A stretch of DNA of 64,000 nucleotides from Rhabdothermincola salaria (GTDB taxonomy: Bacteria; Actinomycetota; Acidimicrobiia; Acidimicrobiales; Acidimicrobilacustridaceae): the NCBI RefSeq assembly GCF_021246445.1, contig NZ_JAJQXW010000001.1, positions 682,001 to 746,000 on the forward strand, read 5' to 3'. The notes beneath the pieces were generated by a model. That model worked only from the letters and a program-made list of their open reading frames with translations, searched no databases and was not told where the DNA came from. Of the stretch, positions 2,340-14,506 are shown in pieces. A program made the position numbers and the translations under genes. How positions within the stretch are numbered: position 1 is the first letter of the stretch; each line of letters begins with the position of its first letter.

Positions 2340-3197
2340 TCAGCGGTGGGGACGCACCAGGGCCTCCTGGGCCACGGTGGCGACCAGGCGGCCGTCGGGA
2401 TCGTGCACCGAGCCCTGCACGAGAGCCCGCTGACCGGAGATGGTGACGATCGACTGGGTGTACAGGTGCCACCGCTCGAACCGCACCGGCCGATGGAACC
2501 AGACGGCGTGGTCGAGGCTCACCCCGGTGAGGGCGGCCACCCCGGGACCGTCGGGGTGCGACCGGTAGGCCATGTCGAGCAGGAAGTAGTCGCTGGCGTA
2601 GGCGAGGAGCGCCGCGTCGAGCACGGCGTCGTCGACCGGGCGGGCCAGGCGCATCCAGTGGGAACGGGGCCCCTGGCCCACCGGGCCACCGAAGAACGTG
2701 GGTGGCTCCGCCATGCGCATCTCCACCGCGGGGGGCACCTCCACCCAGCGCGACGTCATCGCCTGGTGCTCGGCGGGAGCGCGGCGCGCCCAGTCCTCGA
2801 GCGAGGGCAGCGTCTCGGGTGGGTCGGCCGGCGGGGGAGGGGCGGCCACGTCGACCCCGGGTGGGGTGTCGTGGAACGAGACGAGGGCGGCCAGCAGCTC
2901 CCGGCCGTCCTCGAGCACCGACACCCGACGGGTGGCGAACGAACGGCCGTCCCGCACCCGGTCGACCACCAGCTCGACCGCTGCACCGGGTGATCCGGCG
3001 GCCACGAACGAGGCGTGGATGGACTGGGGCACCTTCCCCGCGACGGTGGCGCCGGCGGCGGCCACCGCCTGGGCCACCAGCTGGCCGCCGAAGGCCCGGT
3101 CGAAGCGGCCCGGCTCTCCGGGCGCCGCGAAGCGGTCCTCGCCGATCGGTTCGAGCGTGAGCGCCCGCACCATGGCATCGAGGACGGCGACGCTCAC
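2340..3197 (-). CDS. Acyl-CoA thioesterase, TesB type
   Basis: Predicted to hydrolyse acyl-CoA to free fatty acid and CoA in the cytoplasm. The 285-residue length is normal for the two-hotdog TesB family. The N-terminal part carries FDRAFGGQLVAQAV, the usual first-hotdog helix region, followed by QSIHASFVAAG; the C-terminal part carries ALLAYASDYFLLD and SLDHAVWFHRP, typical of the second hotdog. I chose GTG 3197 because it overlaps the stop of the upstream LLM oxidoreductase gene (GTGA), implying translational coupling; ATG 3173 is a shorter alternative. The pairing suggests a role in lipid or xenobiotic acid turnover, but the acyl chain preference cannot be read from the sequence. Confidence 0.9.
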   Translation of the reverse strand: MSVAVLDAMVRALTLEPIGEDRFAAPGEPGRFDRAFGGQLVAQAVAAAGATVAGKVPQSIHASFVAAGSPGAAVELVVDRVRDGRSFATRRVSVLEDGRELLAALVSFHDTPPGVDVAAPPPPADPPETLPSLEDWARRAPAEHQAMTSRWVEVPPAVEMRMAEPPTFFGGPVGQGPRSHWMRLARPVDDAVLDAALLAYASDYFLLDMAYRSHPDGPGVAALTGVSLDHAVWFHRPVRFERWHLYTQSIVTISGQRALVQGSVHDPDGRLVATVAQEALVRPHR

Positions 3198-4123
3198 GGT
3201 GCCGGGGCGAGGGCGGCGATGATCTCCTCGCCGTAGCGGGTGAGGTTGTCGATGACCTCGGCGCGGGTGCGTCCCGACGCGTTGCCCGCGATCCACGTCA
3301 CGCCGGCCTCGGCCAGCTCGTGCAGCGCCTCGAGATGCTGCTGCGGGTTCCAGTCCGGCGTCCCGGGGGCCCCGCCCTCGAAGCACATGTACATCACGTC
3401 GACCGGCGCGGTCCGCCCGACGGAGGCGGCGTGGTCGTGGAGGTACGCCAGCATGTCGCGCAGCTGCTCGGTGGTCTCGAGCGGCGGCGACCGGCGTCGC
3501 GCCGCCAGCTCGGCCGGGTTCGGCAACGGCATCCACCCCTGGCCCCACTCGGCGACGCGGCGACGGGTGAGCTTGGAGTTGCCGCCCAGCCACAGGGGCG
3601 GGTGGGGCTGGCGGGCCGGGGTGGGCTGCGAGGTGATGTCGCGGGCGGAGAAGTGCAGACCCTCGTACGTGACGGGCTCGCCGGTCCACGCCATGCGCAT
3701 CACGTCCACCGCTTCGTCGAACAGTGCGTTGCGTTCGTCGAAGTCGACCCCCAACGCGTGGTACTCACCCTTGAGGTAGCCGGTTCCCATGCCCAGGATC
3801 ACGCGCCCGTCCGAGACCCTGTCGAGGGTGGCCACCGCCTTGGCCAGCATGAAGGGGTTGCGGTACGGCACGACGGTGAGGTTCGTCAGCAGCTGCAGCT
3901 GCGAGGTGGCCGCCGCCGCGAACGACAGGGCGACGAACGGGTCGAGGGCGTCGTGGCCGCCGGTCTGACGCCAGCGTTCGGCCGGCGCAGGGTGCTCGGT
4001 GACGTAGACGGCGCCGAAGCCGGCCGCCTCGGCGGACGCGGCGAGCTCCATCAGGGCCTGCGCCGTCAAGAACTCCTCGATGGGCGGACAGGTCGTGAAC
4101 GGGTAGCCCCACGAGAACCTCAT
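3194..4123 (-). CDS. LLM-class F420-dependent oxidoreductase
   Basis: A 309-residue single-domain luciferase-like (bacterial luciferase family) TIM barrel. It shows the family features VYVTEHPAP, LLTNLTVVPYRNPFMLAKAVATLD, and GRVILGMGTGYLKGEYHALG, which place it among the actinobacterial F420-dependent LLM enzymes. These move hydride between F420 and an organic substrate, which is unknown here. Its stop overlaps the start of the TesB thioesterase, so the two form an operon. It diverges from the PAP2 phosphatase gene across a 248-base gap that must hold both promoters. Cofactor assignment rests on family knowledge; FMN use is the alternative. Confidence 0.87.
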   Translation of the reverse strand: MRFSWGYPFTTCPPIEEFLTAQALMELAASAEAAGFGAVYVTEHPAPAERWRQTGGHDALDPFVALSFAAAATSQLQLLTNLTVVPYRNPFMLAKAVATLDRVSDGRVILGMGTGYLKGEYHALGVDFDERNALFDEAVDVMRMAWTGEPVTYEGLHFSARDITSQPTPARQPHPPLWLGGNSKLTRRRVAEWGQGWMPLPNPAELAARRRSPPLETTEQLRDMLAYLHDHAASVGRTAPVDVMYMCFEGGAPGTPDWNPQQHLEALHELAEAGVTWIAGNASGRTRAEVIDNLTRYGEEIIAALAPAP

Positions 4124-9603: not shown

Positions 9604-10614
9604 TCAGGGGCCGTCGGGGCCCGCGGGGTTGCGGTCGCCCAGCGCGCCGAGCACGGTCCACTGCGGGGGTGACGAGGTGGCCCAGTCGTACAAGCTGGCC
9701 CCGAGCACGCCGTCGCGGGCCTCGATGGCCTCGAGCATGCCCTGCACCTCGGCGACGGTGGCGCCGTCCGCGATGCCGCCGATGACGTGGATGGGGAGGT
9801 CGGGGTCGCCGGTGGCGGCGCGGATGCGGTCGATGTTCTCGCCCACGTACCGGTTCCCGTCCTGCCACTCGGGGAGGCGGATCGACCAGTAGGTCATGGG
9901 CAGGACCACGTCGTAGGTCTCGGCGATGTCGACCCACGGGAAGTCGGGCCAGAAGTCGGGGTTGACCTCCTGGACGTGGACTGCGGACAGGGTGATGCCC
10001 CCGAGGACCTGGTCGGGGAGCGCGGCGCGCAGCCCGTCGTTGAGCTCGGCGAGGCGGGCGTTGCGCTCGACCGGGTCCTCGATGGTCGTCGACTCGATGT
10101 CGACCGCCAGGCCGTCGACATCGAGCTCCGCCGACGCGAGGAGGCGTTCGAGGTCGACGTCGATGTCCTCCAGAGTGGGGAGGTACCAGGCCACGACCGA
10201 CAGGCCGTGCTCGTGGGCGGCGTCGATGAGCCCCTCGACCCGCTCCTGTTCGAGCACGGTCTGGTCGGGAACGCCCAGGTGCGAGGTCTGCAGGTACACG
10301 GTCTGGATGCCGAGGTCGGCCATGGCCGCGAGGTCGTCCTCGCCGACCACGGGCGTCTCGCCCCCCAGCGCCTGGGACCAGTCGAACGCGTCGACCCAGG
10401 CGCCCAGCCCCTGGTAGGGCTCGAGCGTCCACGGCTCGGCCGCCGGCCCCGTGGGACCGGAGTCCCGATCGAGCACCCACGCCACCCCGAACGCGAGCAG
10501 CGCCACGACGAGCAGTCCGGCGAGCACCAGCCCGCTGCGGCGCCTCGGTCGAGGTCCAGGGGTGGGTGCGTCGACTTCGCCGGTTGCGATCGGGGGAGCG
10601 TCATCGGCGGCCAT
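9604..10614 (-). CDS. Membrane-anchored glycoside-hydrolase-like TIM barrel
   Basis: A 336-residue type II membrane protein: a cytoplasmic basic stretch (RPRRRSG), one hydrophobic anchor at about 29-47, then an extracellular domain. The domain reads as a TIM barrel related to glycosidase-like families, with TVYLQTSHLG, GLSVVAWYLPTLED, then DGLAVDIES ending a strand (the Asp and Glu are candidate catalytic acids), DVVLPMTYWS and IHVIGGIADGATVAEVQGM. The substrate is unknown; cell-surface polysaccharide is a guess. Start ATG 10614 places the anchor correctly; longer in-frame starts add only arginine-rich sequence. Confidence 0.68.
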   Translation of the reverse strand: MAADDAPPIATGEVDAPTPGPRPRRRSGLVLAGLLVVALLAFGVAWVLDRDSGPTGPAAEPWTLEPYQGLGAWVDAFDWSQALGGETPVVGEDDLAAMADLGIQTVYLQTSHLGVPDQTVLEQERVEGLIDAAHEHGLSVVAWYLPTLEDIDVDLERLLASAELDVDGLAVDIESTTIEDPVERNARLAELNDGLRAALPDQVLGGITLSAVHVQEVNPDFWPDFPWVDIAETYDVVLPMTYWSIRLPEWQDGNRYVGENIDRIRAATGDPDLPIHVIGGIADGATVAEVQGMLEAIEARDGVLGASLYDWATSSPPQWTVLGALGDRNPAGPDGP

Positions 10615-10890
10615 ACGACCATCTCTACCCCGACTCCGGCCGCGGCCCGGCGTCGTGGGCGAGATCGTCGGGTGGGCGCCCCGACACCACCACCGACCGA
10701 CGCGGTCGGTTCTGCATCCGGGCCCGAGGAGGGTACGTTCCCCGACAGCGGTCCAAGGGGACGGGTTCGACACCGACCTACGGGCCATTCCGTCGGCCCC
10801 TCTCTGTGGCAACCGCCTGCCATGGATCGAGGGGCCGGCGCGACGCCCGCTGGAGTCCTGCGCCGGTCGGGCGGACGGCGGTAGCTGACG

Positions 10891-11887: not shown

Positions 11888-14506
11888 ATGACGGCACGTG
11901 CCCTGGTCCGAACCGTGCTCCTGCTGGGCCTGGTCGCCCTCGTGGGCTGGTCCCGCCCCGCGGCGGCTCAGACCAGCGGTCTGCCCGACTTCACGGCCGA
12001 CGAGTTCGTCGCCTTCTACGACCAGCTCGACCTGCCGGGCACCCGACCGCTGACGGCGGCGCCGCGCATCACGGGCGTGCCTGGGGCCGACGATCGCATC
12101 GTGGACCTCGCCCGCCTCGCCGGCTACCAGCTGCGACCCGTCGCGTCGGTGCCCCTCACCGCCACCGGTGGCGTTTTGGTGCAGCCGGCGGCCGCCGCCC
12201 CCTTCGATCGCCTGGCCGCCGCCGCCTGGGCCGCCGGCAACCCGTTGGTGGCCGTCTCCGAGTTCCGCAGCGTCGACGAGCAACGGGAGATCTTCCTCGC
12301 CGAGCTGCGCGCGGAGGGGCGACAGCGGATCGGCCGGCCCTACACCACGTCCGAGATCGCCATCGGGTCCGCCGATGCGGCCATCCGTGAGGTGCTCCGA
12401 CTCCACTCGGTGCCCGGCTTCTCCCACCACCACTCGGGCCACGCCGTGGACGTCACGGTGCCGGGAAGCGGGCTCGGCGCCTTCGAGGGCAGCGCTGCCC
12501 AGGCCTGGCTCGCCGCCGACAACCACGCCAACGCCAAGATCCACGGGTTCATCCCGAGCTACCCCGAGGGGGCCACGGACATCGGACCCGTGCCCGAGCC
12601 GTGGCAGTACGTGTACGTCGGTGTGGACCGGCTCCGGTGCGCCCAGGACGTCATCGACCTGCAGGATCCCGACGCCCCGAGCCGCTGCCCCGTGGGCTTC
12701 CTCGACCGCGTGAGCGTGGACGGGACACGCGTCACGGTGGCGGGCTGGGCCGCCGATCCCGACGTCCCCACCGGGCCGATCGACGTGCACCTCTACGTCG
12801 ACGGCCAGGGGGCCGCCATCGTGCGGGCGGACGACCACCGCCCCGACGTGGCCGAGCAGACGCCGTTCGGACCCAACCACGGATTCCGCGCCACCCTCGT
12901 GCTCGGGCAGGGGACCCACGAGGTCTGCGCCTACGCCATCAACGACCGCCCCGGCGACGCCAACCGCCTCCTGGGCTGTCGCACCGTGGAGGTCTCCACC
13001 GCCGAGCCGGTCGGCAGCCTCGACGAGGTTCGCCCCCAGGGCACCGCGCTCCGGATCCGGGGCTGGGCCGCGGACCCCGACCTGCCTGAACGCGCCCTCG
13101 ACGTCCACGTCTACGTCGACGGTGTCGGATACGCCGTGCGCGCCGACGAGTACCGCTCCGACCTCCAGGCGGGCACCCCGTTCGGAGGCTTCCACGGGTT
13201 CAGCCTGACCGTCGACGTGCCCGCCGGGGGCCACACAGCCTGCGCCTACGCCATCGCCGCGCAGAGGGGCGAGAGCAACCAGCTGCTGGGCTGCGCCAGC
13301 GCCGCGGTGCTCGGCGACGAGCCCACCGGTGCCCTCGACGTCGTACGCACCGTCGGCGACGAGACCGTCCGGGTCCAGGGTTGGGCGGTGGACGCCGAGG
13401 TGCCCGACGAGGCCCTGCCGGTCCACGTCTACGCCAACGGTCGTGGCGTCGCCGTCACCACCGCCGACCGGGCTCGGTCGGACGTCGACCGGGCCTACGG
13501 CGTCGGCCGTGACCATGGGTTCGACGCTCGGTTCGGTCTCGATGTCGGACGCCACGACGTGTGCGCCTACGCCATCGCCGTGCAGCCCGGTGAGCCGAAC
13601 GTCCTCCTCGGGTGCCGCACCGTCACCGTCGTGGGCGAGCGCCCCGTGGGCGTGCTCGACGTCCTGCGCCTCGACGGCGACGCTGTCCTCGTCGCGGGGT
13701 GGGCCGCCGACCCGGACTGGCCCACCACGCCGATCGAGGTGCAGGTGAGCATCGACGGCGTCCCCGAGAGGTTGCTCGCCGACGGCTACCGTCCCGACGT
13801 GGCCTCCGCCACGATGTTCGGCCCCAACCACGGGTTCGGAGTTCGCCGTGGCCTCGCTCCCGGACCCCACGAGATCTGCGTCACGGCGCTACCCGCCGAC
13901 GCCGGCGAGGTGCCCACCGCCTTCGGCTGCGCCACCCTGACGGTCGCGTCGGCGCCGGGCGTCATCCACCTGACGTTCGACGACGGGCCCCATCCCACCT
14001 GGACGCCCGAGGTCCTCGACGTGCTCGACCGGTACGGCGCCGCCGCCACCTTCTTCCCGATCGGCAGCGCCGCGGAGCAGCAGCCGGGGCTCGTCGACGA
14101 GATCGCGGCCCTGGGCCACACCCTCGGCAACCAGACCTACGACCACGTGCGGCTGACGGAGGTCGACCTCGAGGAGTTCACCTACCAGGTCGAAACCGCC
14201 GAGGCAGCCATCAGCCCGCACGGCACCCAGTGCCTTCGCCCGCCCTACGGAGCGGTGGACGACACCGTTCGCGACCGGGCGGCCGCACTCGGGTACGAGG
14301 TGGTGCTCTGGTCCGTCGACACCGAGGACTGGAGGCTGCCGGGCGCCGACGTGATCGCCGATCGCATCGTCGCCGGCGCCGAGGACGGCGCGGTCGTCCT
14401 GCTGCACGACGGCGGCGATGAGCTCCGCAGCCAGACCGTCTCCGGCCTCGACGCCGCGCTCGACCGGCTCACCGACGAGGGTTGGCGCTTCGAGCCCGTC
14501 TGCTGA
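11888..14506 (+). CDS. Secreted VanY-like peptidase / 4-repeat / NodB deacetylase fusion
   Basis: An 872-residue exported protein. A signal peptide (about 1-26, ending AAAQT) is followed by an M15 VanY-like D-Ala-D-Ala carboxypeptidase domain with SHHHSGHAVDV near residue 178 and EPWQYVYVG near 237. Four repeats of about 105 residues follow (starting near 268, 374, 479 and 584), each with a form of LDxVxxxGxxVxVxGWAxDPD, VHVYVDG and YAI. A NodB polysaccharide deacetylase domain (692-872) has LTFDDGPHPTW, GNQTYDH, LRPPYG and DTEDW. Both catalytic domains show Gln where zinc-binding His is usual (Q240 in the ExWH position, Q749 in the H(S/T)xxxH position). The protein probably acts on the cell wall or is a catalytically altered binder. 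Confidence 0.88.
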   Translation: MTARALVRTVLLLGLVALVGWSRPAAAQTSGLPDFTADEFVAFYDQLDLPGTRPLTAAPRITGVPGADDRIVDLARLAGYQLRPVASVPLTATGGVLVQPAAAAPFDRLAAAAWAAGNPLVAVSEFRSVDEQREIFLAELRAEGRQRIGRPYTTSEIAIGSADAAIREVLRLHSVPGFSHHHSGHAVDVTVPGSGLGAFEGSAAQAWLAADNHANAKIHGFIPSYPEGATDIGPVPEPWQYVYVGVDRLRCAQDVIDLQDPDAPSRCPVGFLDRVSVDGTRVTVAGWAADPDVPTGPIDVHLYVDGQGAAIVRADDHRPDVAEQTPFGPNHGFRATLVLGQGTHEVCAYAINDRPGDANRLLGCRTVEVSTAEPVGSLDEVRPQGTALRIRGWAADPDLPERALDVHVYVDGVGYAVRADEYRSDLQAGTPFGGFHGFSLTVDVPAGGHTACAYAIAAQRGESNQLLGCASAAVLGDEPTGALDVVRTVGDETVRVQGWAVDAEVPDEALPVHVYANGRGVAVTTADRARSDVDRAYGVGRDHGFDARFGLDVGRHDVCAYAIAVQPGEPNVLLGCRTVTVVGERPVGVLDVLRLDGDAVLVAGWAADPDWPTTPIEVQVSIDGVPERLLADGYRPDVASATMFGPNHGFGVRRGLAPGPHEICVTALPADAGEVPTAFGCATLTVASAPGVIHLTFDDGPHPTWTPEVLDVLDRYGAAATFFPIGSAAEQQPGLVDEIAALGHTLGNQTYDHVRLTEVDLEEFTYQVETAEAAISPHGTQCLRPPYGAVDDTVRDRAAALGYEVVLWSVDTEDWRLPGADVIADRIVAGAEDGAVVLLHDGGDELRSQTVSGLDAALDRLTDEGWRFEPVC

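Follow-up and report, generated by a model that had tools for sequence, protein, structure and literature searches.

A Rhabdothermincola salaria protein joining VanY and NodB domains through FN3-like repeats, with glutamine at a metal-ligand position of each domain

An intact gene of Rhabdothermincola salaria was found to encode a VanY domain and a NodB domain joined through four repeats, with glutamine at a metal-ligand position in each domain. The VanY and CE4/NodB folds are known; what appears from our comparisons to be new is the glutamine at ligand positions of both folds and the fusion itself, which was not found elsewhere. Alignments indicate that the prior state was glutamate in the VanY domain and histidine in the NodB domain, and that the other catalytic residues have been retained.

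Gene structure and FN3-like repeats

The open reading frame lies at 11888-14506 (+) of the window, which is the whole stretch of 64,000 nucleotides analyzed (682001-746000) from a 3.9 Mb genome in 7 contigs. It is intact and complete, and its 872 codons (GC3, 0.93) contain neither a frameshift nor a stop. The encoded protein of 872 amino acids begins with MTARALVRTVLLLGLVALVGWSRPAAAQ, which looked like a signal peptide when read by eye; the signal-peptide-like segment MTARALVRTVLLLGLVALVGWSRPAAA is encoded at 11888-11968 (+). The protein is probably secreted and is probably a peptidoglycan-directed wall protein. Pfam searches placed a VanY domain at residues 98-245 (12179-12622, +; E 1.2e-18, 67.7 bits against a cut-off of 25) and a Polysacc_deac_1 domain at residues 690-806 (E 9.5e-30, 103.6 bits against a cut-off of 23.1), the latter within a NodB/CE4 polysaccharide deacetylase domain of residues 690-872 (13955-14503, +). 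Several CE4 and VanY models of NCBIfam also matched the protein, all below their cut-offs.

Between the two domains are four repeats of about 105 residues, at residues 268-373 (12689-13006, +), 374-478 (13007-13321, +), 479-585 (13322-13642, +) and 586-688 (13643-13951, +). These GW repeats share the signature GWA-DPD ... HGF ... C ... GC, with two conserved cysteines. For three of the copies no Pfam match was obtained even when E values up to 10 were allowed, in a search whose HMMER filters hide weak matches. The repeat was modelled as a seven-stranded beta-sandwich (pLDDT 95.5), and its closest structural match was the bacterial FN3 of CbhA (3pe9; Z 10.9, rmsd 2.2 over 85 residues); a Foldseek search with the same model returned no match with E below 0.001. 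The model thus places the GW repeats as FN3-like: the predicted beta-sandwich is common to both, whereas the two conserved cysteines, the GWA-DPD/HGF signature and the apparent lack of a matching Pfam model set the repeat apart from FN3 modules. It most likely serves as a spacer or a wall-contact module. Among the fetched loci, further copies of this repeat are present in several additional secreted proteins of the genome, and it was found in 13 of the 296 sampled genomes of the phylum. The repeat-bearing loci besides 12689-13951 of the window are L002, L003, L005, L006, L008 and L076. The last of these holds, in the same genome, a second VanY protein (L076:353-2806, +) with two copies of the repeat and a canonical EPWH motif, which makes it a natural comparison partner.

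An earlier note on this DNA had pointed to the joining of VanY and NodB folds through four repeats as unusual. The Pfam domains and the repeats between them bear out the joining. Its rarity was likewise upheld: among all fetched loci, many of them cut by their flanks and with NodB relatives drawn from the class only, no second open reading frame contained both VanY and NodB, and we found no description of a VanY-NodB fusion in the open-access literature. Some of the VanY relatives consist of VanY only, and others carry C-terminal extensions, including the same FN3-like repeat. The genome encodes three other VanY proteins with a normal ExWH motif and one other PF01522 protein. A PPK2 polyphosphate kinase gene lies upstream on the opposite strand and ABC transporter genes lie downstream, so the neighborhood gives no functional hint. 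Beside the PPK2 gene is an open reading frame of 402 amino acids (9604-10812, -) that had no Pfam match at E 0.001 and looked, by eye, like a membrane-anchored extracellular protein.

Gln240 and the ExWE branch of VanY proteins

The VanY domain was modelled with AlphaFold2 over residues 27-267 (pLDDT 93.7). Its best structural match was VanYB (Z 14.7, rmsd 3.1 over 162 residues), and LdcB matched with Z 13.8; the model indicates that the LAS/M15 fold is intact. With the known VanY/LdcB proteins (PF02557, MEROPS M15B; VanYB 5hnm/5zhf, BaLdcB 4mph, BsLdcB 4ox3) the domain shares, besides the fold, the SxHxxGxAxD motif, the catalytic Glu of ExW (Glu237) and the conserved Arg127. SxHxxGxAxD is present as SHHHSGHAVD, in which the first zinc ligand, His181 (12428-12430, +), and the second, Asp188 (12449-12451, +), are kept; both are invariant in 88 relatives, and the role of His181 was taken from LdcB (PMC4087270). 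The third zinc ligand of VanY/LdcB proteins is a histidine; here ExWH reads EPWQ, with Gln240 (CAG; 12605-12607, +) at the third ligand position. This residue aligns with the ExWH histidine of the solved LdcB, YodJ and VanYB structures, which binds zinc in LdcB (as His207 in SpLdcB; PMC4087270).

Relatives of the VanY domain came from searches of genomes at the family, class and order levels and from scanning the genomes of 84,980 species; the scan patterns did not contain the EPW motif, so they carry no bias towards Glu. Position 240 was Glu in 111 of 112 loci, some of which are the same gene repeated, and Lys in one. Among the 92 distinct relatives, which form what we call the ExWE branch, 91 had Glu (EPWE), one had Lys and none had His. 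The Lys belongs to a Parcubacteria relative (L154:2659-3639, +; EPWK) and possibly reflects a true loss of the metal site. L142 seemed to be an exception (R/E), but its end (MNPRAEE) looks misaligned or divergent. The lone additional His sequence, in the Saccharibacteria contig L106, is a separate canonical VanY: an EPWH open reading frame at 2706-3497 (-) lies near the EPWE open reading frame (+).

In the tree, the R. salaria domain grouped with L018, L080 and L170, all EPWE, with 99% SH-aLRT. The codon at position 240 is GAG in the nearest relatives and CAG in R. salaria, one G-to-C step. Since 91 of the 92 relatives carry Glu, none carries His and the R. salaria domain falls inside a Glu-bearing clade, Gln240 is not a lost histidine, and the loss of a His ligand proposed for it by the earlier note was not borne out. 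The alignments, tree and codons indicate that Gln240 arose from Glu on the protein's own branch.

ExWE is a minority type among VanY proteins: a class sample drawn by the Pfam model, not by our sequence, contained 22 ExWH, 3 ExWE and no Gln proteins. The ExWE branch is also marked by a second His directly after the first ligand (SxHH), unlike known VanY/LdcB proteins; this was found in 84 of 88 members, the remainder having Gln, and in none of the 22 ExWH proteins of the class sample. Glu may act as the zinc ligand in this branch, or the added His may help. Members, which include L080, L017, L018, L081, L119 and about 85 further loci, are distributed over Acidimicrobiia, Patescibacteria/Saccharibacteria and Spirochaetota, and the nearest named relatives of the R. 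salaria domain belong to Acidimicrobiia. Neither a description nor a solved structure of ExWE VanY proteins was found in the open-access literature.

Gln749 and the distribution of changes over both domains

The closest relatives of the NodB domain, sampled within the class only, are CE4 proteins up to 55% identical to it (40-55% for acidimicrobial CE4 proteins). In CE4 enzymes, motif 1 supplies the catalytic base and the metal-binding Asp, and motif 2 supplies two metal-binding His residues (PMC4505593). With the CE4/NodB family (PF01522; Bc1960, PdaC, PgdA) the domain shares TFDD, the second His of motif 2, RPPYG, DxxDW and LLHD. The catalytic base Asp698, Arg784 of motif 3, Asp814 of motif 4 and His840 of motif 5 are all present, as are the metal-binding Asp699 of TFDD (13982-13984, +; role from PMC4505593) and, by alignment, His753, the second metal-binding His of motif 2 (14144-14146, +). 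The Asp-His-His metal triad is nevertheless incomplete: the first His of motif 2, found in the CE4/NodB family, is replaced by Gln749 (CAG; 14132-14134, +). All 29 distinct NodB relatives have His at this position, encoded by CAC or CAT. Given this invariance, Gln749 is a genuine His-to-Gln ligand substitution, so far seen only in the R. salaria protein.

The glutamines of EPWQ and NQTYDH had been reported in the earlier note, and this stands: both codons are CAG in an intact frame, both fall on metal-ligand columns, and no relative that we found shares either. Its view of two losses of metal ligands holds for Gln749 only, and its remark that a single base separates either CAG from a His codon is literally true of both but misses the Glu codon (GAG) that the nearest relatives have at position 240. 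Either the changed catalytic scheme or the wall-binding role that it suggested may apply.

Conservation of the glutamines in orthologues was also checked, and none had Gln; VanY relatives had Glu, or Lys in one case, and NodB relatives had His. No Gln orthologue was present in 37 genomes of the family, 395 of the class and 397 of the order (overlapping sets, read for the matches returned as loci) or among the 80 loci that came from scanning 84,980 species, so conservation offers no argument for a function of the Gln form. The one same-genus genome has no ExWE VanY form, and the other genomes of the family either have none or have Glu.

Near-invariant columns were compared over both domains. 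The protein departs from them at 2 of 31 columns in VanY (R78A, E240Q) and at 3 of 42 in NodB (V724P, H749Q, G844D), that is, at 5 of 73 overall, and two of the five departures fall on the six ligand columns. The hypergeometric P for this clustering is about 0.05, in a case that was picked because of the clustering; it is borderline and suggestive only. The end branch in the tree was 0.50, no longer than that of the clade mate L018 (0.50), and the mean distance of the protein was within the family range. By these measures the protein is not evolving faster than its kin and gives no sign of decay.

Possible functions of the two-glutamine protein

We tentatively favor a metal-holding wall protein, attenuated or shifted in its metal, with Gln as third ligand at both sites; metal binding via Gln, residual activity and substrate are all putative. 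In this reading an N-terminal domain of the Glu-bearing (ExWE) VanY/LdcB branch and a C-terminal domain of CE4 fold would be held apart by the four FN3-like repeats, and one metal-ligand position in each would have turned to Gln on the lineage of the protein (Glu240 to Gln, His749 to Gln). The carboxamide oxygen of Gln would complete a His/Asp/Gln site in VanY and an Asp/Gln/His site in NodB with a weaker hold on the metal, leaving an attenuated or metal-shifted peptidase/deacetylase that could still grip stem peptide and glycan. Gln is a working zinc ligand in the active class B3 metallo-beta-lactamases LRA-12 and GOB, where it naturally occupies a zinc position that is His in relatives (PMC5531557), although these enzymes differ in having an unrelated fold and a dizinc site. 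The metal-binding Asp is missing from MurNAc deacetylases, PdaA among them, and yet these CE4 enzymes are active (PMC5855634). Counting against the reading, the reviewed CE4 proteins without the motif-2 His residues have been classed as inactive (PMC5855634).

It is also quite conceivable, at somewhat lower probability, that both domains have lost catalysis and act within a wall scaffold or regulator as modules that bind peptide and glycan. The substitutions fall on metal-ligand positions in both domains, and the genome holds the other VanY and PF01522 proteins mentioned above. The FN3-NodB proteins BA0330 and BA0331 of Bacillus anthracis, in which no deacetylase activity was detected, bind peptidoglycan and stabilize the wall (PMC4505593), and BA0150 is without metal (PMC5855634). 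Within the same LAS superfamily, catalytically inactive LytM proteins are described as regulators of wall hydrolases (PMC8416486). BA0330 and BA0331, however, keep the full Asp-His-His triad and so are no direct parallel; they are also lipoproteins without a VanY domain. Because both domains retain every other catalytic residue and the branch shows no acceleration, Gln-liganded or attenuated sites seem a slightly better explanation than two decayed enzymes. The mutations might instead be recent or strain-specific, without a settled function, in a gene starting to be lost. The confinement of the Gln form to one genome, together with its relatives in genus and family that lack the VanY form or have Glu, is consistent with this, but the frame and its GC3 remain undisturbed despite two ligand substitutions, and we regard it as improbable. 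That both codons stem from errors in sequencing or assembly is very improbable: each codon is indeed one base away from that of the relatives, but two independent base errors, separate G/C transversions, would have had to strike the ligand codons of one otherwise undisrupted gene.

A broader proposal, which we consider doubtful, combines an undescribed ExWE branch, distributed over Acidimicrobiia, Patescibacteria and Spirochaetota, where Glu took the place of the third zinc His and a His was gained next to the first ligand, with a later appearance of Gln in both sites of the R. salaria protein, which would then be a bifunctional Gln-liganded wall enzyme. If true, a zinc ligand would have been swapped naturally from His to Glu throughout an entire branch of wall peptidases, and a single protein would carry Gln at the metal in two unrelated metalloenzyme folds. 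The analysis also brings to light an FN3-like repeat, apparently absent from Pfam, that the bacterium attaches to several of its secreted proteins.
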